From: Verrucomicrobiales bacterium
GTDB taxonomy: Bacteria > Verrucomicrobiota > Verrucomicrobiia > Limisphaerales > UBA11320
Direction of reading: 5' to 3'
NCBI GenBank assembly: GCA_016793885.1
Contig: JAEUHE010000231.1
Coordinates: 1-64,000, forward strand
Length of the DNA: 64,000 nucleotides
Made by a program: the position numbers and the translations under genes. Position 1 is the first letter of the stretch, and each line of letters begins with the position of its first letter. The notes under the pieces are model-generated. The model saw nothing but the letters and a program-made list of their open reading frames with translations, ran no database searches and was not told where the DNA came from. This document shows, in pieces, positions 19,036 to 33,643 of this stretch.

Positions 19036-19731
19036 GTGCGCATCCTGGTCGTGGAAGATGAATGTAAGGTGGCCCGCTTTATCGAGGAAGGGCTCCGCGA
19101 ACAAGCGTATGCGGTCGACTGGGCTCCGGATGGCCAGGAAGGACTGTATCGGGCCTTGAATAACGCCTACGACTTGATCGTATTGGATGCACTACTGCCC
19201 AAGAAGGACGGTTTCACCCTGCTTCGGGAGATTCGCTCGACAGGCAGCAATGTGCTAGTGCTGATGCTGACTGCACGAGCGAGCGTGCGGGATCGCGTCC
19301 AGGGGCTTGATGCGGGAGCGGATGACTATCTCACCAAGCCTTTTGATTTCGATGAGTTCCTGGCTCGTGTGCGCGCGCTGTTGCGCCGGAGTACGGCCGA
19401 CGGCCAACTTATACTCCGTGTTGCGGATCTTGAGCTCGACCCCCGAACACGGAAAGTAAGTCGCGCAGGCCGCCCGTTGTCACTCTCCGCCAAACAGTTC
19501 AGCGTCTTGGAGTTCCTTCTGCGCAACCCGAACGAAGTCGTCACTCGAACCAAGCTGGCCACTCATGTGTGGGATGAAAACTTCGATCCATTCAGCAATG
19601 TGATTGATGTGACCATGCATCACGTTCGTGAAAAGGTCGACCGCGAGTTCTCACCCACACTCATCCACACCGTGCGAGGAGTTGGCTACGTGCTGAAAGT
19701 GGAGGGATGCCCCCGAAATTGCATTTCTTAA
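19036..19731 (+). CDS. OmpR-family response regulator
   Basis: The 231-residue protein is a receiver plus winged-helix regulator close to the CusR/CopR type. The receiver has acidic residues VEDE, phospho-acceptor Asp51 in LIVLDALLP, the switch threonine in MLTA and Lys101 in YLTKPFDF. The DNA-binding half (about 130-225) has the usual LSAKQFSVLEFLL and the recognition-helix segment NVIDVTMHHVREKVD, ending in HTVRGVGYVL. The start codon is GTG, chosen because AGGAA lies six bases upstream and the frame begins RILVVED. The kinase gene follows; its likely start is 57 bases downstream. A four-hexamer array begins over this gene's own stop codon (19728-19765), suggesting that the regulator controls the kinase gene and the 2582-aa gene downstream. 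Confidence 0.96.
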   Translation: MRILVVEDECKVARFIEEGLREQAYAVDWAPDGQEGLYRALNNAYDLIVLDALLPKKDGFTLLREIRSTGSNVLVLMLTARASVRDRVQGLDAGADDYLTKPFDFDEFLARVRALLRRSTADGQLILRVADLELDPRTRKVSRAGRPLSLSAKQFSVLEFLLRNPNEVVTRTKLATHVWDENFDPFSNVIDVTMHHVREKVDREFSPTLIHTVRGVGYVLKVEGCPRNCIS

Positions 19732-19765
19732 CGCAAGTTAATGTTGGTTTCACCCAGGGTTAATG
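19728..19765 (+). promoter_or_regulatory. TTAAnn hexamer array before the kinase
   Basis: TTAACG (19728), TTAATG (19738), a degenerate TTCACC (19749) and TTAATG (19760) are spaced 10, 11 and 11 bases. The identical spacing recurs at 21253-21290. Tandem half-sites on one face of the helix are the known binding pattern of OmpR/PhoB/PhoP-type regulators, one of which is encoded just upstream. The array overlaps the regulator stop codon and ends 23 bases before the likely kinase start at 19789. Confidence 0.55.
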
Positions 19766-19788
19766 GACCACCAGGCATCCTACCACGC

Positions 19789-21240
19789 ATGAAAAGCATT
19801 CGGACTCGCCTCATGGTAGGCATTGGTGTTGTGGTCGGCCTGGGGCTGACCACCTTCTCGATTGCCTTTTTCAACCAAGTAGTGCTTTGGATGCGAGAGG
19901 ATCTGAACGAGAAGCTCACCAATCGCGCGATCGCCTTCGCGTTCGCGGTAAATCCTCGCCGCCCCATCTACGAAGCCCATTTTGATCGCGGGTTCCGCCC
20001 TGAGGTGAGTGGAACGCTGTATCTGCTCTACGATACTAACGGCACGGTAATCGGGAAATCCACCGGCGTCAGCGTGCCCTTTGGTCTTAGCCAGCTCGCA
20101 CGCGAGCAAACCCACCCGTTCGCCAGACCGTTGAAGGAGGAAATCACGCTCCCTGGGGGAATACCTTTCCAGGTGGCCACCTACCCGGTCTTCATCCGAG
20201 AGGACGGGCCGACCCGAACGCCCAAAGGTGATGATCCTACCCAATTCATTCCGACCGACCGCACCATCACCGCTTGGGCTCAGGTGGGCACCGCGATCGG
20301 GGGGCTGCACGACCGCGTCCTGCGTTTGCGCCTGTGGCTCACGCTCGCAAGTGTGGTGTTTTTCGGCAGTGTGATGGCTTGTGTCTACTATCTGACCGGA
20401 CAGTGGTTGCGGTCGCTGAGTCTCGCCACGGAAACTGCCGAAAGACTCAGCAACTCCGAGATCGGGCAACTTCGCCTAATCACGCCATCGGACGAGCCGG
20501 AAATCAACCGGTTGACCCAAGCGCTCAACGGCATCCTCGACCGCTTAAACGAGTCGCACAACGCACAGCAACGCATGGTAGCGGATGCCTCCCACGAGCT
20601 GAGAACACCGCTCACCATCCTGCGGGGAGAAATCCAGGTGGCTCTCCGTCGGGAGCGATCCATCGACCGGTATCAGGCAGTTCTGGCCAGCAACCACGAC
20701 GAAATTGTTCGGCTCTGCCGAATCGTCGAGAACCTGCTCACGCTGGCGCACGCGGATGCCGGAGAAGTGCTGGTGAAACAGGAACGAGTCAAGGTCGAGG
20801 TACTCGTTTCGATGGTGTGCGCCAAGCTCTCCCCCCTGGCGGACCCCCATCAAGTCCGCCTGCGCACGGAGCTCCAGGAAGGACTGATCGTGCTGGGGGA
20901 CCCCCTCGCCTTGGAATCGGCCCTAACAAATCTCATCGAGAACGCCATCCGCCACTCCATGCCCGACGAGGAAGTGCAGGTGCGAGCCGCGGCGCAGGAA
21001 GAAGAAGTCGTCGTGGAGGTGATCGACGGAGGAGCGGGGATCGCACCCGAGCACCTCCCGCGGCTGTTCGAAAGATTCTATCGTGTGGACAAAGCACGTT
21101 CACGGCAACTCGGAGGTGCAGGACTGGGGCTGGCCATCGTCAAAATGCTGGTGGAAGCACATGGGGGAACCGTCGGGGTGAAGAGCACCATCGGAACCGG
21201 CAGCACGTTCACCATCCGCTTGCCGACCGCCCCTCCATGA
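19789..21240 (+). CDS. Sensor histidine kinase
   Basis: The chosen start MKSIRTRLMVG gives 483 residues; an ATG at 19741 adds 16 residues overlapping the hexamer array. There are two membrane segments, at about residues 7-30 and 180-203, enclosing a ~145-residue sensor region outside the membrane. A HAMP-like linker follows, then the phospho-acceptor His269 in DASHELRTPLTILRGE. The ATPase part shows the N box (LIENAIRHS), G1 (DGGAGIAPEHL), the F box (LFERFYRVD) and G2 (GGAGLGLAIVKML). It is the partner of the OmpR-type regulator just upstream and resembles heavy-metal-type kinases such as CusS. The sensor region has no cysteine or histidine cluster, so a metal signal is not supported. Confidence 0.95.
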   Translation: MKSIRTRLMVGIGVVVGLGLTTFSIAFFNQVVLWMREDLNEKLTNRAIAFAFAVNPRRPIYEAHFDRGFRPEVSGTLYLLYDTNGTVIGKSTGVSVPFGLSQLAREQTHPFARPLKEEITLPGGIPFQVATYPVFIREDGPTRTPKGDDPTQFIPTDRTITAWAQVGTAIGGLHDRVLRLRLWLTLASVVFFGSVMACVYYLTGQWLRSLSLATETAERLSNSEIGQLRLITPSDEPEINRLTQALNGILDRLNESHNAQQRMVADASHELRTPLTILRGEIQVALRRERSIDRYQAVLASNHDEIVRLCRIVENLLTLAHADAGEVLVKQERVKVEVLVSMVCAKLSPLADPHQVRLRTELQEGLIVLGDPLALESALTNLIENAIRHSMPDEEVQVRAAAQEEEVVVEVIDGGAGIAPEHLPRLFERFYRVDKARSRQLGGAGLGLAIVKMLVEAHGGTVGVKSTIGTGSTFTIRLPTAPP

Positions 21241-21314: not shown

Positions 21315-24300
21315 ATGAAAACCGTCAATTCACCTGCTTCGAGTTTTCCTGAACGGACGCGCCTCTCACTCTTCCTGGCCTTCATCGGCTTGAGCCTGCT
21401 TTCGGGATCAGCCGACACCATCACCTGGACAAATGTCGCAGGAGGGACCTGGGGGAGAGCGACACACTGGAGTCCAGGCAGAGTTCCCACGATCGCGGAT
21501 GATGTCCTGATCACCACGCCTGGCACTTATACCATCACTCAGGATGTTCATTCGGTGGCTGCCAGCCTCACCCTCGGTGCCGCCACGGGAAGCCAGACAC
21601 TCGTGGCCAATGGGCGGAGTCTGACGGTGGCTCAAACTCTCCTCATCGGTGCCAACGGAGTTCTCACTGAGAACAACAATCTGACGAGCGCCGTGGCGCG
21701 AGTGGAGGGGCGTCTCAACTGGACAGGCGGCACGCTGGTGGGCCCGTTGGGTCGCACCGGGCTGGTGGACGTCGCGGTGGGCGGACTCGTCACGATGACC
21801 AACAACGCCGGGAGGACCCTCACTCGCATGGGTGTTACCAACGGTGGACGGATTCTGTGGACGCAAGGCAGCCTGACCAGTTCTGGAGGAAACATGGAGT
21901 TCTGGAATCTGAACCAGTTTGAGATCGGTCCCAACTCCCCAGCGACGGCATCCTGGGCGCCCTCCGCTGCCACGATCACCAGTTTTCTCCACAATACCGT
22001 GAGCGGTCGAGTCCTGAAGACCGGCAGCGCCGCTGCTCGCCTCGATGCTCGCCTGATCAATGAGGGGACCATCGAGGTTCAAGCCGGCACTTTGGAATTC
22101 TCCGACGGGGGCACTAACTCCGGACCGATCGCCATCAACGCTGGCACCACGCTGCAGATCTCCGCCGGCGTGTTCGATTTTGTGGGCGGCCAACTCACCG
22201 GCGACGGGACGAACCTGATCTCCGGAACCGCAAGGGTTCGGTATCTCGCCGGTGCCCAATTCGGGGCTGGGTCCTATCTCCTCGATGTGGCGGGCGGATC
22301 CCTCGACTTCGAGACAGGGGCGGCACCCACGGTCAACAGTCTAAGGGTTCGCGGTGGGGTCCTAGGTGGCAGCGACACGCTGGAAATCAACGGCCGATTC
22401 ACTTGGAATGGCGGCAGCTTCGAAGATCTCACTCTCATTACTCATGGAGGGCTGTTTATAACCCCGACCGCCGGCGTAGCCTTAAGTTGGCGAGGAGGGC
22501 GAATCGACAATTGGGGCAACGGGGCATGGACAAACGGGAGCATTCAAACGATTTCTCAGGGGACTCAGGCCACACTCTCTAACCACGGCCGCCTTGACTT
22601 CATGCAGGGGGTCAACTGGAACGATTCAGGGAACCCCGGCGCTCGGATCGTCAATGAAGGCCTCATCCGTCTTCCCGAAAGTACCCAGGCGACTTCCCTA
22701 GGAGTGTTTCTGGAGAACCGCCCATCGGGGACGCTTCACGTGACCAACACCGATCTGACTCTCTCCAAAGGGGGCTACAACGAGGGACGTGTGGAAGTCG
22801 CAGGAACTGGATCGATGAAGCTTACCGCCACAAGCGTTCCATTCGAATTGCGCCCCGGATCTCAACTGGTGGGCAATGGCCTCCTTCAGATTAACGGTCT
22901 CCTCAAATGTTTTTCGGGTGTCGAGGTCGGTGATCCATTGATGCACCTCCGTCTCAACTCCGGCCAGCTTCTTCTCAACCAGGACTGCACATTTTCGGCC
23001 GGAGAGGTCGAGCTGGTCGCCGGCTCCGTCGCGGGACCTGGGCAACTGGTGGCCCATGGAGAAACACATTGGCAACAAGGGGATCTCCGAACGAACGTGT
23101 TCCTGAATTGCCTCGGCGGCCTGACCATCGATAGTCCAACCACCGCACCCCATTCTTTCAGCGCAGGGATCGTGCGCAACGCCGGGGTTGCCCACTGGTC
23201 GGCGGGGCTCACACAAACCACGCCTGGGCCCTCGATCATCACCAACGACGCTGGCGGGACTTTTCAAATGGACGACGGGGTCCGATGGAGTTCCCCGGGC
23301 AACACGCCCAACCGCTTAGTAAACGAAGGAACCTTCACGCGAAATCCCGGTGCAGGCACGGTCCAGATCGAAGGACATTTCGACAATGCTGGAACCAATG
23401 TCCTCCGCGGATCGCTGAGTCTCAAACCGAATGTGGGAGTCTACCATCAGACGGCCGGAAGAACTGTGTTCGAGGGTGGCGGATCCCTCCGAGCCGACGG
23501 AGGAACGCAAATCGACGGGGGCACGTTCGATGGCAATGGCGAAATCGACTCGGCCGTGACCAACGGCGGAACGATCCGTCCCGGTGCGAGCCCGGGACTG
23601 TTGCACCTCCTTCGACAGTTTGTCCAACTGCCCTCCGGCAATTTGGAAGTCGAGCTGACCGGCACCGCAGTGGACCAATTTGACCGCCTGTTGGTGGATG
23701 GCTCCGCAGCCCTCGACGGTCTGGTCAGCGTGTCCTTTCTGGGAGGGTTCACCCCTCAACCCTCCGACACTTTCAAATTTCTCACGGCGACCGGCGGGAG
23801 AACCGGGGCGTTCGCCGATCTGGCCGCCCCAGCGGGCCCACCTTGGCTGGCCTTGGGCGAGCTCGCGGACGGAGCCCAACTCAGCGTAATCACTGGCCCA
23901 CCCCAGCTCTCCATCTCCCTGCCGTTTCCCTCAACCACCCTCACCGCGGAGCAATCGGTTGACATCGACGTCTCCTTGTCATTTCCGGGTGGCAACGTTG
24001 CAAACGTGAGTTTGACCGCCATCAGCGGGGACCAGTCCATTGTTCCCAACGCGAACATTACCTTCACGGGGACTGGCCGCGTGAGAGTGATGCGCATCCG
24101 TCCGAACGTGGGGAGCTCCGGGTCCACCGTAGTCACCGTAACGGCAACTGGCGAAGGGGGCCGAACCGCCAGCGCCTCGCTGAATCTGGTCGTTCTACCT
24201 GCCCCCCCCCAAGGAATGCTGGTGTATGAACCTTTTGACTACACACCTGCAGCAGGCCCGCTGTCCCTCAAGGCTGGTGGCTTTGGATTCAGCGGACCTT

Positions 24301-27300
24301 GGGGTGCCGCCAGTGGGTTCACTTTGGATTCTGGATCACTGCCCTATCCCAACATGCAGCAGGCGGGACATCACGCGAAGGTTCCCTCGCAGCCGATCAG
24401 TGCGCAAACCATCGCGCGTCGGTTGTCGACCCCATTGGGTACCCCAGGGACGGTCCGCTATCTGAGTTTCCTCGCCAGGCCGGCCGGAACCCTCGGGGCG
24501 GGCGGGGGCAACGGCTATTTCGGACTGCTGGCCGATGCCTCGGTCGGATTGGACCTATTCGTGGGTAAGCCGGGTGGCGGCGACTTCAACCACTGGGTGG
24601 TGGAGGATGCCGGGGGAGCTAGACAAGTCACAAGCTCCCAACCGGCACTGGTAGGAACAGCGGCCTGGCTAGTCATCAAGCTGGAGTTCTTCCCAGGCAA
24701 CGATCGTATTTCCCTGTTTGTGAATCCGATCCCAGGCCAACCAGAGCCCGTGACGCCGAATGCGCTCAGGACCGATCGCGACCTCGGGGAGATCGCCGGG
24801 CTGGCCCTGACTTCGACGGGAGCATGGGCGATCGATGAACTGCGAGTGGGAACAACCTGGACCAGTGCCACACCCGATTCGGCCTATCTGGTCCCCTTGG
24901 CTTTGCAATCCGTGGGCACCTTGAAAGCCACGGAGGGAACGGCGCTCCGATTTACACCCTCGCTGCAATCGGTCGTCACACCGCGTCAGCCCATTTTCGA
25001 GCTGGTTGCTAGCCCTCCGGGCATGACGATCGACGCCAATACTGGGGCGCTCTTCTGGCTTCCGGATGAAAGGTCAGGAGGTACCCTGCCTGCGGTCACC
25101 GTTCGGGTCCACGATGAGCCATTGCCGTCCACGGGTCAGGCCGAAGTCACTTTCCAAGTCGACGTTCAGGAAGCGAACAGTCCTCCCGGGTTGAACCTCG
25201 CCTCCAACGCAAGCTTGGAGGTGGCTCCAGGGACGCCTTACCGGCTCCAACTCGGATTCATCGACAGCGATCTGCCTGCCAATACTGTGGTCTTCGCACT
25301 CACCCCTAACACCGGTCCGGTCGGTCTGACGGTTTCCCCCGACGGCCTACTGGAGTGGACTCCGCCGGTCGATGCACCTCTCGGCCCGCTGACAGTGCGT
25401 GTCCGTCTCACCGACTTCAACCCCAGCGCCCCAGCCAGCTCGCAACACCTAACCACCGATGCCCGATTTGACCTCACGATAGTAAAGCCCAACGCGGACT
25501 TGGCGGTCCGTCACGTCCTCGCGCCTCGAACGGTGGCCCAGGGCCAGACCGCCCAGTTCCAATTCGAGATTGAGAACCGGGGACCCTCGATAGCTAACCA
25601 GTCACAATTCACGTTTCAATCTCCTGAGTTTCTAGGAAATCCCGCCCGACTCGCACTGGTGAGCGCTTTCAACAACCGCGGCACCTACCAATTGCAAGGC
25701 GACAAACTGATCTGCGATTTGGGGAATCTGGGGGTGGGAGAAAAGGCGGGCGTCTTGATCGAGCTCAGATTCTTGAGCGACAGCACGACGTCGTTCATGA
25801 CCTCCGCCAAGTCGAGCCTGGTGGACTTCAATCTCAGTAACAATGGAGACGCTGGAACAGTCGAAGTCGCCGAGCCACCCCCTCAAAACCCTACCCAGTG
25901 GCAGTTCACCAAGATTGAGGAACTGGGGGATACCGGTTACGGAGCGTGCCTGGCCACCGATCGAAAAGGATTACCTCACTCGATCTGGTTCAACCGCAGC
26001 CAACGCCAGATTCACTATGGGACCTGGGATGGGCTGAGATGGACGGGGCGCCTGCTGAACGCGCCATTCAGTCCCCAAAGCGCTTCACCCAGCACAGTGT
26101 CCGCAGACATCAGCACTCCGTTGTCGATGGCGGTAGACGAGAACTACCGAGTTCATGTGGCTGGGGCGATTCAACGCAGTGATTTAAGTCGAGCGTTGGT
26201 GTACTCCACTCCAAATCGTGACAACGACCCAGCGGCCGAGTGGGTGGTGGAAGAGGTGTTCCCGGGGCCAGTGTTTAGTCCGATTCTGCACATTGGCCCG
26301 GGCACCTCGCCGTCTCGCGATATCTGGTTTGTGGCTGCCGGGACGCTGAACCGCGCCACTCGAGGTGCTAGCGCCGTGGCGAGCTGGGGGACTGAGACAT
26401 TTCGCCTCCCAGACGGTTGGAAGGTATCAAGTTTTGGAACCACCATCGCCCCCGTCGAAGGAGAGCAGGTTTTTCTAGCGGGCGAGCGTCCTGACGGAAC
26501 GGTGGCACTGCTGCTGTTCGATGTGCACTCAAGCCAACTGCAAGTCCTGGACGAGTTAGCCAAGAGAAGTGATCGCCCTATCCATATCTCAGCGAAATCG
26601 ATCCAAGAATCCACAGCTGCCGCCTACACCCGATATCCCGTGGAGGATGGACTTCCAGAAATTGCCTACGTTCATCAACAGCCGTCCGGGTGGAAGATTG
26701 AGTTGGTCAACCCACAGGACCGTTGCAGTCGCCCCTCGCTAAGTGTGGACCAACAAGGCGCACCCCTCGTCGCGTTCACCTGCACCGAACAGACGGCCAA
26801 TTTCACGGTATTTGAAGACCAGGATCGGTTTTATCGACGGCTTTGGTACACGGCCCGGTTCGACGGATCGGTCTGGGCTCTCAACCGGATCTATGAAACC
26901 GAGGAGATCACCGTGGGGCTCACGCTCGAACAAAAGCGAATTCCGCTCGACCATCCGATCGATCCAGCACTGGCTCTAGGCAATTCGCTGGACGGCTCGC
27001 CCATGATTGTATTTCACACGGGGTGGCCGAACGAGAATGTGGTCTTTGGCACCCTCGCTCCTCGCTGGACGCCAATGCCCACCGTCGCCACTTTAGGTGA
27101 AGGGGTGAACGTGGCTCCTGTCCTCTCCCTCGATTCCTCTTCCTTACCCCATGTCGCCTGGTCAGACAGCCACCAAACCGCTACCGACATCCTGAATCAC
27201 AAGTGGCTGTTGCCCGGCTTCGCGTACGGGGCCTCTCCTCCGCAGATCTTGAGAGGAGCGATCCACCGCGATGGGCTGCTCCACACCCGATCCGGCGAGC

Positions 27301-29063
27301 TGCTCGCATTGGTGACCGATCCACTGAGTGACCGTGAAGCGAAAGCGCTGCGCTGGACGACGGGAGTCACCCCCTGGATGGACGACGCTCTTCCGCCAGG
27401 CTTACGAGGAGCCGGAGATGGCAAAGTGGGTCTGGTGGAGTTGGTCAATGAAGGCTCCTCGATCAGTGTCCCTCTCCAAATCGCTCTCGGCTTTGATGAT
27501 CAAAACCGGCCGACAACCTACGACACCACCTCCTTTTCCTCCTGGCTGGCTGCGCGCACGGCCAATACGGTCTCCCCGAACCCTGGACTCCCTCCCGTGA
27601 CTGCTACATTCGCGGCAGGCATCGGCCGATTTGAGACGCCTGCGGCCTATGTGGCCTACGTGGTGAAGGACCAAACATTCCGTATTCGCGTCGCAAGATT
27701 CGAAGGCTTCGTCTGGCGGGAGGATCAGGAGATTCTTCAGGTCAACGATACCCTACCTCCACTGATCGATTTGATGTGGACCGATCATCCTCCCTACGAT
27801 GATATTAGCAACCTCGGCTACCTCTATCTTGCCTACACGCTCCCCGCGCCCAACGGCCAGCGCTCCGTTGCAATTGCACGCCGTCACCTGACCAAGTTGA
27901 ACACGGAACCTTGGGAATTCATTTCCCTCGCCAACCTCCCTCCGAGTTATATCCAGAGTTTGCGCCTGAAGGGGGTTGAAGAGTCCCTACGTCTGGCCGT
28001 ATTCGGCGCCGGGCGGGCCCTGTTGGTTTCTTCCGAAGGAATCCTCGACACCAATAAATTAGGGCACGCTGCAGTAGAACGACTGCCGATATCGGGGACA
28101 CCGGTGAATGTGGACATGGCGATGACCGACTCCCGAGTGTGGCTCACCTACCAGAACCAAGACCGCGTCGAACTGGTTGGGAGCGGCGGATTCATCACGT
28201 TCTCAGGGAATGAGATACCTCGGAGTCCAGGCTTAGTCCCTCCGATCATTTCCCTTGGGGCATCCTGTGAGAATCACGAGGATGATGCTGACTGCTATAC
28301 TTGCTTCTTTCTAATAAAGGCCTTTGCAAACCGCTGGGTTTCAGGACTCCCATCCCCCAATTCCCCTGCCCCACCGCCCTTGATCAAGACACTAAGTCAC
28401 TCATCGCCTGTCGATGACACGTCGATCAACATGGTCCCTAGCTTCTACCGAATCCGCGACCTCATGAATCAAACCTCGGAAGGGAAACGTTTGGTGGATC
28501 TTTATTATCGATTCGAGGGGACAGCGCGGCAGATCGCGAACCGGAATCCAGTCCTTTATGTCCGATCCTATCAGATGTCTCTAAACTATCTTCCCGCCCT
28601 CGCGGCTTGGCTGGCAGGCCGCGGATCCGAAGTCACCATCACTCGCGAAATGATCGAGCAGCTGAACTCCCTATGGGATACGTTCGCCGCACTCGGTGAT
28701 GCGGATCTCAAGGCCGCCTTGCTGTCTGAGCGCGCGCGGTTTCATGGCTTCGACGACTTCATCGGCAAGAACATGGATGACTGGGCCGCCCTGCTCCAAA
28801 TCCCCAGCACGGCTCCGAACCGCCTCCAGATCCTCAAAGCCGCGTTTGGTGGGGATGGCTTCTTTGTCACCCTCACGCCGCAACCGGGCTCCAATTACAC
28901 CTTGGTTCGGAAAAGCGACGTGGAGGGCGCTACCTGGACCAGGGTAGCCAACCAGTCCCAACGCACCGTGGCGGATCAACTGGTCCTGAACGATCCACAG
29001 CCGCCCAATGGAAGGGCATTCTATCGAGTGGAAGCCGCTCCGGAGTTACCGAACCTCAAATGA
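21315..29063 (+). CDS. 2582-aa exported beta-helix/propeller surface protein
   Basis: A signal peptide (hydrophobic LSLFLAFIGLSLLSG, ending near residue 36) leads a long modular protein. Residues ~37-830 are a beta-helix-like region with many short G-T-N-rich rungs of the autotransporter passenger type, closed by a typical end segment (GNLEVELTGTAVDQFDRL). Then follow an Ig-like domain (~855-960), a LamG-like module (~965-1190) with YEPFDY and IDELRVGTTW, two cadherin/putative-Ig domains (~1200-1390), and a DUF11-like domain (~1395-1515, NADLAVRH ... FNLSNNGDAG). Residues ~1520-2300 look propeller-like, followed by a cysteine-rich patch near 2315 (SCENHEDDADCYTC). The C-terminal module (YTLVRKSDVEGATWTRV ... 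FYRV) ends the protein. A run of nine C lies in frame at 24202-24210. It is probably under control of the adjacent two-component system. Confidence 0.93.
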   Translation: MKTVNSPASSFPERTRLSLFLAFIGLSLLSGSADTITWTNVAGGTWGRATHWSPGRVPTIADDVLITTPGTYTITQDVHSVAASLTLGAATGSQTLVANGRSLTVAQTLLIGANGVLTENNNLTSAVARVEGRLNWTGGTLVGPLGRTGLVDVAVGGLVTMTNNAGRTLTRMGVTNGGRILWTQGSLTSSGGNMEFWNLNQFEIGPNSPATASWAPSAATITSFLHNTVSGRVLKTGSAAARLDARLINEGTIEVQAGTLEFSDGGTNSGPIAINAGTTLQISAGVFDFVGGQLTGDGTNLISGTARVRYLAGAQFGAGSYLLDVAGGSLDFETGAAPTVNSLRVRGGVLGGSDTLEINGRFTWNGGSFEDLTLITHGGLFITPTAGVALSWRGGRIDNWGNGAWTNGSIQTISQGTQATLSNHGRLDFMQGVNWNDSGNPGARIVNEGLIRLPESTQATSLGVFLENRPSGTLHVTNTDLTLSKGGYNEGRVEVAGTGSMKLTATSVPFELRPGSQLVGNGLLQINGLLKCFSGVEVGDPLMHLRLNSGQLLLNQDCTFSAGEVELVAGSVAGPGQLVAHGETHWQQGDLRTNVFLNCLGGLTIDSPTTAPHSFSAGIVRNAGVAHWSAGLTQTTPGPSIITNDAGGTFQMDDGVRWSSPGNTPNRLVNEGTFTRNPGAGTVQIEGHFDNAGTNVLRGSLSLKPNVGVYHQTAGRTVFEGGGSLRADGGTQIDGGTFDGNGEIDSAVTNGGTIRPGASPGLLHLLRQFVQLPSGNLEVELTGTAVDQFDRLLVDGSAALDGLVSVSFLGGFTPQPSDTFKFLTATGGRTGAFADLAAPAGPPWLALGELADGAQLSVITGPPQLSISLPFPSTTLTAEQSVDIDVSLSFPGGNVANVSLTAISGDQSIVPNANITFTGTGRVRVMRIRPNVGSSGSTVVTVTATGEGGRTASASLNLVVLPAPPQGMLVYEPFDYTPAAGPLSLKAGGFGFSGPWGAASGFTLDSGSLPYPNMQQAGHHAKVPSQPISAQTIARRLSTPLGTPGTVRYLSFLARPAGTLGAGGGNGYFGLLADASVGLDLFVGKPGGGDFNHWVVEDAGGARQVTSSQPALVGTAAWLVIKLEFFPGNDRISLFVNPIPGQPEPVTPNALRTDRDLGEIAGLALTSTGAWAIDELRVGTTWTSATPDSAYLVPLALQSVGTLKATEGTALRFTPSLQSVVTPRQPIFELVASPPGMTIDANTGALFWLPDERSGGTLPAVTVRVHDEPLPSTGQAEVTFQVDVQEANSPPGLNLASNASLEVAPGTPYRLQLGFIDSDLPANTVVFALTPNTGPVGLTVSPDGLLEWTPPVDAPLGPLTVRVRLTDFNPSAPASSQHLTTDARFDLTIVKPNADLAVRHVLAPRTVAQGQTAQFQFEIENRGPSIANQSQFTFQSPEFLGNPARLALVSAFNNRGTYQLQGDKLICDLGNLGVGEKAGVLIELRFLSDSTTSFMTSAKSSLVDFNLSNNGDAGTVEVAEPPPQNPTQWQFTKIEELGDTGYGACLATDRKGLPHSIWFNRSQRQIHYGTWDGLRWTGRLLNAPFSPQSASPSTVSADISTPLSMAVDENYRVHVAGAIQRSDLSRALVYSTPNRDNDPAAEWVVEEVFPGPVFSPILHIGPGTSPSRDIWFVAAGTLNRATRGASAVASWGTETFRLPDGWKVSSFGTTIAPVEGEQVFLAGERPDGTVALLLFDVHSSQLQVLDELAKRSDRPIHISAKSIQESTAAAYTRYPVEDGLPEIAYVHQQPSGWKIELVNPQDRCSRPSLSVDQQGAPLVAFTCTEQTANFTVFEDQDRFYRRLWYTARFDGSVWALNRIYETEEITVGLTLEQKRIPLDHPIDPALALGNSLDGSPMIVFHTGWPNENVVFGTLAPRWTPMPTVATLGEGVNVAPVLSLDSSSLPHVAWSDSHQTATDILNHKWLLPGFAYGASPPQILRGAIHRDGLLHTRSGELLALVTDPLSDREAKALRWTTGVTPWMDDALPPGLRGAGDGKVGLVELVNEGSSISVPLQIALGFDDQNRPTTYDTTSFSSWLAARTANTVSPNPGLPPVTATFAAGIGRFETPAAYVAYVVKDQTFRIRVARFEGFVWREDQEILQVNDTLPPLIDLMWTDHPPYDDISNLGYLYLAYTLPAPNGQRSVAIARRHLTKLNTEPWEFISLANLPPSYIQSLRLKGVEESLRLAVFGAGRALLVSSEGILDTNKLGHAAVERLPISGTPVNVDMAMTDSRVWLTYQNQDRVELVGSGGFITFSGNEIPRSPGLVPPIISLGASCENHEDDADCYTCFFLIKAFANRWVSGLPSPNSPAPPPLIKTLSHSSPVDDTSINMVPSFYRIRDLMNQTSEGKRLVDLYYRFEGTARQIANRNPVLYVRSYQMSLNYLPALAAWLAGRGSEVTITREMIEQLNSLWDTFAALGDADLKAALLSERARFHGFDDFIGKNMDDWAALLQIPSTAPNRLQILKAAFGGDGFFVTLTPQPGSNYTLVRKSDVEGATWTRVANQSQRTVADQLVLNDPQPPNGRAFYRVEAAPELPNLK
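24202..24210 (+). repeat. C9 homopolymer inside the giant gene
   Basis: Nine consecutive C encode part of LPAPPQG at about residue 963, between the Ig-like and LamG-like modules. Homopolymers of this length can slip in replication; a one-base change would truncate the protein and remove its C-terminal 1600 residues. It may also be chance in GC-rich DNA. Confidence 0.5.
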
Positions 29064-29131: not shown

Positions 29132-31090
29132 CTACAAATCCGTCAATGCGCGCCGGATCGCTTCTTGGACCTCCGAGGTGCCCAGATTGCCCATATGACC
29201 GCCGCGACCAAAGACCGTGATTTGCTCGGCTCGGAAGGAATTTCTGAGCCAGTCCAGATCTTCCCGAGGCAGCAGGAAATCATTCTCATTCGTAATGATC
29301 CACACCTTGGGGTTACTCTGTAGCCCCTCACTGTAGGTTCTCAAATCACCCGCCCGATCCAGGGCGCCAGGCGCGGCGAGATCAACTCCCCGCGAATGGT
29401 AGTAGGGCACCGCAAACCTCTGAAGATACTCGGCAAACGAATAGCGAAGAATCTCGTCGTAAACCGGCCCTCGACGAGAGCTGCGAATTGCGTGCTCCAG
29501 CACTCCCAGGTTGGTCCGCTGCTGGCTGCTGAAAATGACATCGCGTAGTTTGAGGCGAAAGCTGAGTCCAATAAGAAACTTGGACTCGACCGCGCTGAAA
29601 GGCACAGCCGAGGTTGAAACTTGTGACCCCTGCACGGATGACGCGATCTTCAGCAAGGCATTTTCCATGTTGGCAGTGCGCTGGTGCGCGGGCCAGGCGA
29701 GTGGGGCGTGATAAAAATCATCCAATCGAGAGATACCGTAACTCAACCTAACCGGAGCGTTAATCGCCACAAAGCGGTCAAACCGGAGGAGGGCAGCATC
29801 GCTCGCCTTCCCCGATCCAGCCAGGAACAGCGTATGGAATCCCCCCATCGAATAACCCATCAGGGCTCTAGTAGTGAGGCGCTCCGGATGCCGTCGAACG
29901 AGATATCGATCCACCTCAGTGAGCGCGACATGGAGATCGTGGGCATCCACCGGAGTGTAACCCGGCACCGCAGCGGTGGAGGCGTGGTCCATGAACTCCG
30001 GGTTATACGGACTGCTGACGCAGACCACCGAATTTCCTTTTTGATAGGCCAACTCGGCCAGCGCCAGGGTCATGTCTGTCAACCGATGCGATCCCAGTCC
30101 CGGAACCAGATATACGATCGGCGCGCGGTTCGGTTGGAGCCAGAGGGAGAACTTTAACGTGTTCCCCGTGGACGGTATTTTTATCGACTTGGTCTGACCG
30201 CGGCCGGGAAAGCCAAGTTCCTTGAACGACACCCGGGTGGACCCAAGGGTGTCCAGTGAAGCGGGATCGGTCTCCCCATGTAAACCGAGGTCGGGCGAGC
30301 GCGGGCTGCGAGCGAAGGTCCACGCGTACTGGAGCATGGCATAAGGATCTGCTTCGGCCCGCGCGAAGCGCACGTAACTGTCAACGCTGTCGGTAAGGTT
30401 GTTGTAGGTCACCCCGTAGGTGTAAAACGTGTACGGACTGATGAAGGACAGCGCACCTTCGCGGCCGCTGCTTTGGGGGGTCACGTAGTGTAGTGGATCG
30501 GCCGCCGAATCGCAGGCCAAACCAAGCGCATCCCGCTCGTTGCTGGGACCAAACACCGGAAGCATCAGATAACAGGCGGGATTCCAGCCCCACCGTCCAA
30601 ACGTCTGACCGAAATCGGCGTCGGATTTCGGAATATGCCATCGCGTGGCCACGTCCACAAAACCCGCCCCGCCGGCCAAGGTGTTGCAGAGAAATCGATC
30701 CGATTCATCCATCGCCCCGCGCCAGCGCCCTTGGAGCAGGTTGTTCAGCAGGCGGCCCGGATAAGTGACGTTGCGGCCGAAGTTGGCAATACCCTGGCGA
30801 AGCGGCTTTCGAATGACAAACCGATACACTTTGCCCGTGGGCTTGACCACCCACGTCATGAGGCCGCGGTTCACACCCCACATCGCCCGATTAAACGGTT
30901 CGAGAGGATCGGGAACGGAGGGCGGGAGGTGGATGATTTCTGCCTCCGGGGCGACTGCGCCTGCTGGCGAGGACTGGTGGGTCGTGTTGGTGGCCAAGGT
31001 CGATTGCGCCCACACATCACCCGCCCAAAACCAAAGAATAAACAACGCTATCCGTCGTGCGTCCAAGTGCATCCTCATCAAACAATCCAT
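29132..31090 (-). CDS. MlaA (VacJ) domain fused to alpha/beta-hydrolase
   Basis: The 652-residue protein joins two enzymes of envelope lipid handling. Residues ~60-260 match MlaA/VacJ, the outer-membrane component that removes misplaced phospholipids: DPLEPFNRAMWGVNR, RNVTYPGRLLNNLLQGRW, FGQTFGRWGW and PVFGPSNERDALG. Residues ~310-650 are an alpha/beta-hydrolase with Ser414 in GYSMGG, Asp604 in NENDFLLP and His632 in GRGGHMG. Standard MlaA is a ~250-residue lipoprotein; here the N-terminus has a signal peptide ending VWAQ with no lipobox cysteine, so attachment must differ. The start at 31090 has GGTGAG upstream; ATGs at 31078 and 31072 are alternatives. No other mla genes are nearby. A role in hydrolysing extracted lipids is inference. 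Confidence 0.92.
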   Translation of the reverse strand: MDCLMRMHLDARRIALFILWFWAGDVWAQSTLATNTTHQSSPAGAVAPEAEIIHLPPSVPDPLEPFNRAMWGVNRGLMTWVVKPTGKVYRFVIRKPLRQGIANFGRNVTYPGRLLNNLLQGRWRGAMDESDRFLCNTLAGGAGFVDVATRWHIPKSDADFGQTFGRWGWNPACYLMLPVFGPSNERDALGLACDSAADPLHYVTPQSSGREGALSFISPYTFYTYGVTYNNLTDSVDSYVRFARAEADPYAMLQYAWTFARSPRSPDLGLHGETDPASLDTLGSTRVSFKELGFPGRGQTKSIKIPSTGNTLKFSLWLQPNRAPIVYLVPGLGSHRLTDMTLALAELAYQKGNSVVCVSSPYNPEFMDHASTAAVPGYTPVDAHDLHVALTEVDRYLVRRHPERLTTRALMGYSMGGFHTLFLAGSGKASDAALLRFDRFVAINAPVRLSYGISRLDDFYHAPLAWPAHQRTANMENALLKIASSVQGSQVSTSAVPFSAVESKFLIGLSFRLKLRDVIFSSQQRTNLGVLEHAIRSSRRGPVYDEILRYSFAEYLQRFAVPYYHSRGVDLAAPGALDRAGDLRTYSEGLQSNPKVWIITNENDFLLPREDLDWLRNSFRAEQITVFGRGGHMGNLGTSEVQEAIRRALTDL

Positions 31091-31207: not shown

Positions 31208-33643
31208 TTACTTTCTCACCGCACGGTAGAACTTCGCCTGAGCACCAGCGGTAGGCACGCGGAACGGATTCGTTGCGCCTGCCACTTCGGTGTAAGGACC
31301 TTCTACCTTGGAGGCTTCCTCCAGGACGATCGCGCCGGCTCCGGCCCAGGCCACGACGGCGTCACCCTGGTAGCTGCCCACCGCCAGCGAGGGGCTGGCC
31401 GCGCTCCAAACCTGGACTTCGGCGATGTTGAGATACCCCTTGGTCGGATCCTCGAACTGCCGCTCAACTCGAACCGTTTTGCCGTTCACCGGCGGGTTGA
31501 TATCCAGGGTCAACGGATCCTCGGGCGTGCCTTCGGCCGCGTAAGTGTATTCCACCCCGCCAGTCGCGTTGAGCACCGTCACAATGAGATTGTCGCTCCG
31601 ATCGCCGCAGCAGTCGGTCCGACGATAATAAACGATCTGACCGATCGACTTCACACCGCCGAGGTCGATTGACAGCCAGGGATTGACTTCATTGTCAGAG
31701 TGGAACACGGAGTTGCCGCCCCAGTTTCCATCGGTGTTGCCGTCGATCGCATACGAGGGCGGGCCACCAAAGGCGGTGGAGGAGGCGGTCGCCACAGCGT
31801 CCTCGGTGAGGGAACCGTTCGCCGGACGGATGTAAGCCCCGCCGACCTTCACCGTAGCCACGGTGGTGGTCAGGTTGCCGAGCGGGTTGGTGATCTGGAG
31901 CTGATAGTCACCAGCCTCGCTGGGAACGATCTGACTCAGGGTCAACTTGGCGGTCTTCGAACCTTTGACGTACTTGCCGTCGGTCAACGGCACACCGTTG
32001 CGAGTCCAGCGGTAGGTGTTCGGACTGCCCGAGGCGGCTGCTGTCAGCACTACTTCCGAGCCGGCGAGCACTTCAGTGCCGGACGGATTGGTCTGAATGG
32101 CTGCGGCAACGTTCTTGATCTCGAACACGCCGAAACCACCGTTTTCCAGGGCGACGTACGCATAGGACTTGCCCAAGTTCGCGGGCGCAGTCAGGTCGGG
32201 CACCACCTCGAGCCAGGACTCGGTGGTGTCGAAGTCAGGTTCAACGCTGCCGCCGTAGTCGAGCAGCACATCGTCTTCTTTGACCGGGATTACATAGGAC
32301 GACTTTCCGCTGGCGATGCTGCCATCCAAACGATGGACTGCCACCCAAGCGTAGGTGTAGAAACCAACGTCATAGGAAGAGGCGGAAATGGACACGAGGT
32401 AGTCCAGCTTCGGGTTGGTATCCAGAGCCACGCTCCAGTTACCATCATACCGATCTACGCCATCAACGCCGCGTTCCAAAGGAAGCCCATCCTTACCAGC
32501 TGCCTCCCAAACGAATTTCGGGAAATTGCCAGCCTCGGCTTCGTCTTGCTTGAACAACCGTACGTCGGGCTGGTTGTTGTACGGATCGCTCGGGGTCGGG
32601 TTGTCCGGATTGGAGGTATAACGATTCGGACGAGCCTGCCAGCCGCTGCCGGGGTAGTGACCACTGTAGATCACTTCCAGGTTGGGCCGAGCGGGATCCG
32701 AACTGACCTGAACACGTCGGCTAGAAGTGCCGCCGAGCGCGAAGTCGTTCCGGCGGGCGTTGTTGCCTCGATCATCCACCCGCGCGAACGGAGTGAAGGT
32801 AAGGCCGTCCGTGGTCTTGAAGAGCTGAGGTTGCTGACCGATACGCCACGTGCCGCCACCGGCCGCGATGATGGTATCCAAGCCATAACCATAAACCCGA
32901 GTATTCCGCCAGCGCCAGGCGCGCCAGCTGCCTTGTTCGCCCGAAGTGGAGGCGGTGCCGGAAAGTCCATCACCGATGCCCGCTTCTGGCTTTACCGCGC
33001 CGTCCGCCTCGTCCAATCCGGGAAGCGGCTCTTCCCAAGCGATGGTAGGCGTCGTTTCCCAGCCGGTGCCGTCTGCTTTGGGAGCATAGCGGAGAATCAA
33101 GTGGCGATAGCCGCTGTAGATCGCGCGTTTGGTAGGATCGGGATTCTCGTCCAAAACCGGGCGCCAAAAAGCATAGCCCTTATTGGCCTGATAACCGGTT
33201 TGACCAGCCGTCACATCATAGTCGATCAAGTCGGCCGGCCGCAGGCTCTCCGACCACGCGACACCGAGAGGCTTGCCGGTGGCGGCCTCCAACCAAACCA
33301 ACGAACGGTCCGGAAACTGCGCAGCCTTGGCCAACTGCTCAGGGGTCACGTCCGGGCTCAGCTCATCAATACCATTCTCAGAAACGGCCAGGAGCAGGCG
33401 GTTGGCATCATAGGGAACGAGCCGCGAATAGATCGCCAGCGACTCACGTCCGTCGCGGAGCAACCCGTCGGGCATTGCGATAACCGGCTGGTTCTCCGGC
33501 TTGTTGAGGATTGGAAGCACATTGGCAGGATCCACGTTGACGGTTCCGTTGATGTGCTGAACCCAGACCGGTGTGACTTCCTGGGCAGAAGTATGTAATG
33601 CAGCCGCCACTGAGAACAGTGGGGTTAAATAACGTAGTTTCAT
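31208..33643 (-). CDS. Exported Ig and F5/8 type C (discoidin) protein
   Basis: The 811-residue product begins with a short signal peptide (MKLRYLTPLFSVAAALHTSAQ). The first ~510 residues are a beta-rich region I cannot name, with SASSYDVGFYTYAWVAVHRLDG and other propeller-like strands. Residues ~512-605 form an Ig-like domain (YRWTRNGVPLTDG ... SEAGDYQLQITNPLG). Residues ~610-740 match a discoidin or F5/8 type C carbohydrate-binding domain (ATASSTAF, AIDGNTDGNWG, NPWLSIDLGGVKSIGQIVYYRRTD). The end is a divergent form of the shared C-terminal module (IVLEEASKVEGPYTEV ... KFYRAV). The gene is a single-gene unit closed by the terminator at 31126-31163. The role is probably extracellular polysaccharide binding. 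Confidence 0.9.
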   Translation of the reverse strand: MKLRYLTPLFSVAAALHTSAQEVTPVWVQHINGTVNVDPANVLPILNKPENQPVIAMPDGLLRDGRESLAIYSRLVPYDANRLLLAVSENGIDELSPDVTPEQLAKAAQFPDRSLVWLEAATGKPLGVAWSESLRPADLIDYDVTAGQTGYQANKGYAFWRPVLDENPDPTKRAIYSGYRHLILRYAPKADGTGWETTPTIAWEEPLPGLDEADGAVKPEAGIGDGLSGTASTSGEQGSWRAWRWRNTRVYGYGLDTIIAAGGGTWRIGQQPQLFKTTDGLTFTPFARVDDRGNNARRNDFALGGTSSRRVQVSSDPARPNLEVIYSGHYPGSGWQARPNRYTSNPDNPTPSDPYNNQPDVRLFKQDEAEAGNFPKFVWEAAGKDGLPLERGVDGVDRYDGNWSVALDTNPKLDYLVSISASSYDVGFYTYAWVAVHRLDGSIASGKSSYVIPVKEDDVLLDYGGSVEPDFDTTESWLEVVPDLTAPANLGKSYAYVALENGGFGVFEIKNVAAAIQTNPSGTEVLAGSEVVLTAAASGSPNTYRWTRNGVPLTDGKYVKGSKTAKLTLSQIVPSEAGDYQLQITNPLGNLTTTVATVKVGGAYIRPANGSLTEDAVATASSTAFGGPPSYAIDGNTDGNWGGNSVFHSDNEVNPWLSIDLGGVKSIGQIVYYRRTDCCGDRSDNLIVTVLNATGGVEYTYAAEGTPEDPLTLDINPPVNGKTVRVERQFEDPTKGYLNIAEVQVWSAASPSLAVGSYQGDAVVAWAGAGAIVLEEASKVEGPYTEVAGATNPFRVPTAGAQAKFYRAVRK

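Follow-up and report, generated by a model that had tools for sequence, protein, structure and literature searches.

A single protein joining an MlaA domain to an alpha/beta-hydrolase is encoded in the window, the whole stretch of 64,000 nucleotides analyzed here from a member of Verrucomicrobiota, and the fusion is real. The protein probably combines, in one covalent chain, an MlaA in the role of MlaZ with a periplasmic lipase of the MlaY type, which would receive lipid directly and cleave it in replacement of the MlaC shuttle. The degradative principle was already published in 2023 for the two-gene system of Pseudomonas aeruginosa. As far as we have checked, the fusion, its spread over the phylum, and the replacement of MlaC are new.

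In P. aeruginosa, MlaY and MlaZ are reportedly a degradative branch of the Mla system, in which MlaZ extracts and MlaY hydrolyzes, as described by Guest et al. in PNAS in 2023. Four other papers state that PA3239 (MlaZ) takes out misplaced phospholipid and passes it to PA3238 (MlaY) for degradation (PMC11131202, PMC12569750, PMC10474453, PMC10925693), and mlaY mutants showed no cardiolipin loss after sphingosine treatment (PMC11977310). The literature searched, with most subscription papers outside its scope, yielded no mention of an MlaA-hydrolase fusion.

The fusion gene and its two domains

The open reading frame of the fusion runs through 652 codons with zero internal stops (Table 1). Its MlaA domain was matched by PF04333 in Pfam with an E value of 3.1e-53 and 180.8 bits (cut-off, 25), and the solved MlaA chains 8i8r, 5nuq, and 5nuo aligned with this domain at E values of 4e-18 to 3e-17. 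The earlier note had read the gene as MlaA joined to an alpha/beta-hydrolase, with an intact catalytic triad and without the lipobox cysteine, and each of these observations was confirmed. The two domains lie in one open frame, and the three triad residues stand in their motifs at the positions that had been given and are conserved in aligned relatives. The only cysteine of the N terminus, C3, precedes the hydrophobic core. When inspected by eye, this core ended in GDVWA, followed by QS after a site resembling that of signal peptidase I, and no lipobox cysteine was seen past it. The fusion differs in this respect from lipoprotein MlaA, in a trait that is variable among relatives. The lipobox is also missing from Pseudomonas MlaZ and from many MlaC-type MlaAs of the phylum. 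Lipobox loss was rejected as a hallmark of the fusion because other fused relatives carry a lipobox.

Table 1. Features of the fusion gene, with positions in the window
Feature	Position	Strand	Description and basis
mlaZ-mlaY-type fusion gene	29132..31090	(-)	652 codons plus stop; sequence, homologues
Signal peptide, residues 1-28	31007..31090	(-)	Type-I-like site between VWA and Q, no lipobox cysteine; by eye
MlaA domain (PF04333), residues 60-261, lipid channel of the outer membrane	30308..30913	(-)	Pfam; solved MlaA chains
Linker, residues 262-285, at the MlaA end	30236..30307	(-)	Position from domain limits; in E. coli, helices and tail at this end receive MlaC (PMC10245069, PMC10719372)
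Alpha/beta-hydrolase domain, MlaY family, residues 286-652	29135..30235	(-)	Pfam, profile, homologues
Ser414, nucleophile, GYSMG	29849..29851	(-)	Motif and alignments
Insertion, residues 447-596, 150 residues, probable cap/lid	29303..29752	(-)	Lacks coverage by the best solved-structure matches
Asp604, catalytic acid, NENDF	29279..29281	(-)	Motif and alignments
His632, catalytic base, GGHMG	29195..29197	(-)	Motif and alignments

We next consider the hydrolase half. Across 45 aligned relatives, the position of Ser414 was occupied by serine in 44, with one gap, and Asp604 and His632 were each present in all 45; the triad was kept in fused and separate forms of the hydrolase alike. The Pfam matches were to generic alpha/beta-hydrolase models only and fell below the cut-off for the window protein, the hydrolase half alone giving a subthreshold match to Abhydrolase_6 (E = 6.5e-4). 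PF02253, the model of the phospholipase A1 beta-barrel PldA, was absent from the Pfam matches of the fusion protein. Profile matches of the hydrolase to solved structures were mixed esterases, and the top match was a venom phospholipase A1, which aligned weakly and over the nucleophile half only. The insertion between the nucleophile and the acid is probably a lid that sets the substrate. Because this insertion is unmatched by the best solved structures, the substrate is unreadable from the sequence. AlphaFold models built with three-sequence input, a shallow alignment, reached a pLDDT of 32 for the whole protein and 39 for the hydrolase alone, values too low to locate the active site relative to the channel.

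The fusion gene stands alone in its surroundings. The upstream gene ends at 31208, and between it and the fusion gene a terminator-like hairpin and a T-run were recognized by eye; the downstream gene (21315-29063) lies on the opposite strand. This convergent neighbor encodes a predicted secreted protein of 2,582 amino acids with DUF11 and putative Ig domains, in which no link to lipid transport was seen; an OmpR-type response regulator and a histidine kinase are encoded directly ahead of it (19036-21240). No operon partners beyond the MlaA/hydrolase pair were conserved, and 36 neighboring genes had almost no family in common. The fusion gene is the sole MlaA gene of the 8.7-Mb assembly, a draft of 274 contigs.

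Kinship of the hydrolase with MlaY

Occurrence beyond the phylum was sampled by tblastn through plasmid records only, in which homologues of the hydrolase were found in P. aeruginosa, Skermanella, and Fusobacterium at 25 to 31% identity. Each of these genes adjoins a VacJ/MlaA gene, as identified by Pfam. In P. aeruginosa, genes for DUF2061, the hydrolase, VacJ, pirin, patatin, a lauroyl acyltransferase, and minCDE follow one another in an order that fits PA3238/PA3239, and PA3239 is given as VacJ (PMC2246019). A profile made from 44 hydrolase domains of Verrucomicrobiota alone matched P. aeruginosa MlaY with 241 bits (E = 3.7e-75, four proteins searched), the Fusobacterium protein with 224 bits, and the Skermanella proteins with 190 to 192 bits; the identity between P. 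aeruginosa MlaY and the Verrucomicrobiota hydrolase is about 25%. The serine and histidine of the triad aligned in all outside homologues, and the acid is Asp, but Glu in Fusobacterium. These profile scores (190 to 241 bits), together with the triad alignment, indicate that the hydrolase is a member of the MlaY family.

Two of the outside loci deserve description. In Fusobacterium vincentii (L111, 5785-7825), the genes form an mlaY-mlaZ pair, whose hydrolase is the one with Glu at the aligned position of the catalytic Asp. On two Skermanella plasmids (L108, 1075-12123; L110, 1075-12108), mlaY-mlaZ are located, in the same orientation as their neighbors, between an RND efflux pair with a small gene and a TamB-like gene. 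It is possible that this locus is a lipid-homeostasis operon joining delivery (TamB) and destruction (MlaYZ).

The MlaA partners showed a different relationship from the hydrolases. MlaZ of Pseudomonas, Skermanella, and Fusobacterium grouped with proteobacterial MlaA (100/98), apart from the fused MlaA, and a common clade of the outside MlaZ and the fused MlaA was marginally rejected (p-AU = 0.034). Because the outside MlaZ proteins do not group with the fused MlaA, the MlaA-hydrolase pairings may have separate origins; a homologous lipase would have been joined to two MlaA branches or moved between branches. Judged from the sequences, the fusion appears MlaYZ-like, with true homology in the MlaY half and an MlaA half of another lineage.

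Like MlaY/MlaZ of P. aeruginosa, the fusion comprises an MlaA-family channel and an exported alpha/beta-hydrolase, the latter homologous end to end with its triad aligned. The genetic linkage is also shared, the two parts being fused in the window and neighbors at ten Verrucomicrobiota loci as well as in Pseudomonas, Skermanella, and Fusobacterium. In addition, PldA (PF02253) was found in none of the 31 hydrolase-type genomes tested, the window genome included, as reported for P. aeruginosa, and in 2 of 25 other genomes. However, the fusion is one chain with MlaA followed by the hydrolase, whereas P. aeruginosa has two genes with mlaY first; the same opposition in order separates the outside lineages, in which mlaY comes first, from Verrucomicrobiota, in which MlaA does. 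The window genome also lacks MlaC, whereas P. aeruginosa keeps the canonical pathway too, and the MlaA half of the fusion comes from a branch of the MlaA tree other than that of MlaZ. Compared with the canonical MlaA-MlaC-MlaFEDB system of E. coli, the fusion has the MlaA domain in common, and the window genome has MlaE and MlaD homologues, but no MlaC is present and the lipid is proposed to meet a hydrolase rather than a carrier. E. coli PldA (OmpLA, PF02253) resembles the fusion in its proposed job, the destruction of misplaced outer-leaflet phospholipid, but belongs to an unrelated protein family. MlaY has been called homologous to PldA (PMC11977310); Pfam matched MlaY to alpha/beta-hydrolase only.

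Distribution in Verrucomicrobiota and exclusion of MlaC

The distribution of the two domains was surveyed in 388 genomes of Verrucomicrobiota, which are drafts of varied completeness. The profile search found the hydrolase family in 106 genomes, all of which have MlaA, and ordinary hydrolases scored at most 27 bits in this search. MlaA was found in 153 of the 388 genomes, a large share of its frames being 600 to 880 amino acids long, and the fused form is widespread in the phylum. Among the window genome and its relatives (58 genomes), MlaA was found in 10, with frames of 650 to 750 amino acids in nine; the exception (G040) has a standalone MlaA adjoining MlaC. Four congeneric species are without MlaA, indicating that the fusion gene is patchy. 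One genome (G174; L071 and L072) has two copies of the fusion, which have diverged but pair as sisters on the trees, and another (G287) has two fused frames, one of them at L076. Two Bacteroidota loci (L013 and L014) gave a weak hydrolase match (27%) with no MlaA alongside, and nothing was found in the viral contigs searched.

MlaA and the hydrolase are usually fused, but they are separate neighbors in ten inspected loci (L079-L086, L088, and L089), on the same strand with MlaA first and, in the nine measured, with -112 to +27 bases between the two frames. The separate hydrolases begin, as seen by eye, with a signal-peptide-like stretch of their own, which indicates that its export does not depend on fusion to MlaA. 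On the MlaA tree, the fused forms made up two groups with the separate forms in between, and the hydrolase tree, with the outside MlaY as root, needed two changes between fused and separate states. The two trees thereby indicate that fusion occurred either twice or once, in the latter case with a single fission in addition.

MlaC (PF05494) was found in 46 of the 388 genomes. Among the 153 genomes with MlaA, 105 have the hydrolase only, 44 have MlaC only, 1 has both, and 3 have neither, an exclusion with a Fisher P value of 1e-33, uncorrected for relatedness. A tree built from 80 MlaA domains shows one switch of partner type. This single switch is a fairer measure than the Fisher P value and corresponds to one old split that has been kept since. 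The genome with both partners (G230) has two MlaA genes, one adjoining MlaC and the other fused. Of the genomes with neither, one (G326) has an MlaA that is truncated at the edge of a contig and falls within the fused clade, and another (G368) has a glycosyltransferase adjoining MlaA. In the third (G329; L093, 3138-6360), MlaA overlaps the frame of an 828-amino-acid MMPL/RND-type transporter, and a PldA-family protein is present in the genome. The MlaC-type MlaAs of the phylum mostly have very short C-terminal tails.

The window genome gave no match to the PF05494 model, by which MlaC was detected elsewhere in the phylum, and it carries three MlaE and three MlaD/MCE genes, located on the same three contigs. 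Because MCE proteins were found in all 58 genomes searched, irrespective of MlaA, the MCE genes cannot be tied to the fusion.

Proposed mechanism and alternative explanations

In the proposed mechanism, the MlaA part in the outer membrane would take up glycerophospholipid misplaced in the outer leaflet, and this lipid would descend through the MlaA channel. The C-terminal helices and tail of E. coli MlaA form the docking site of MlaC, at the periplasmic base of the channel (PMC10245069, PMC10719372). The hydrolase would hang on this C-terminal periplasmic end and, because it begins right after the MlaC-docking end, would sit where the carrier would bind. It would receive the lipid directly from MlaA, and Ser414, Asp604, and His632 would then cleave an acyl ester in a presumed phospholipase reaction, the products of which may be recycled. 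The hydrolase would thus take the place of the MlaC shuttle, in keeping with hydrolase-type genomes being without MlaC. The earlier note had suggested that extracted lipids are hydrolyzed in place. This suggestion is well supported by the hydrolase being a whole-length homologue of MlaY, for which, with MlaZ, such a mechanism has been published.

We lean slightly toward a broader reading, in which a large part of Verrucomicrobiota would use the MlaA channel for degradation only. One MlaA lineage would be tied to a tethered MlaY-type lipase in place of MlaC, by repeated fusion or by fusion and then fission, no retrograde shuttle would operate, and hydrolysis would be the sole MlaA-dependent route to outer-membrane asymmetry. 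Such a system bears on outer-membrane asymmetry in diderms without MlaC, a question raised previously (PMC10665443). The fused and neighboring forms would be natural evidence for a direct hand-over of lipid from MlaA to the lipase, which has only been proposed for P. aeruginosa MlaYZ, and the single-chain form makes this hand-over testable by structure and by mutation of one serine. The near-perfect exclusion of MlaC and the lipase suggests two alternative fates, return or destruction, on the same channel within one phylum.

Acyltransferases and esterases also share the alpha/beta-hydrolase fold. With the mixed esterases among the solved-structure matches and the unmatched insertion, this leaves room for a reading in which MlaA brings in phospholipid and the hydrolase half, as an acyltransferase, transfers an acyl chain to a different acceptor, or in which the substrates are hopanoids, glycerolipids, or lipids from the environment. 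We consider this reading unlikely, given that P. aeruginosa MlaY is needed for the cardiolipin loss that sphingosine induces and has been placed on genetic grounds with the removal of misplaced phospholipid, and that the hydrolase is paired exclusively with MlaA in the 106 genomes. Still less credible is a fusion of convenience, in which the two halves would share one compartment and act separately, MlaA with MlaEFD/MCE and the hydrolase on other substrates. The MlaE and MlaD/MCE genes of the window genome would fit such an arrangement, as long MCE proteins can span the periplasm without MlaC (PMC10665443), but the hydrolase is always accompanied by MlaA and, with one exception, by no MlaC, the pair stays adjacent in three other lineages, and the MCE proteins do not track MlaA. 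An assembly or gene-calling artefact uniting two neighboring genes, which the draft state of the window genome and the separate genes of relatives might have suggested, is ruled out because fused open frames of about 600 to 880 amino acids recur in independent genomes, including those of one or two contigs (G140, G174, G207, and G230) and the named records L011 and L012 at 54 to 57% identity.
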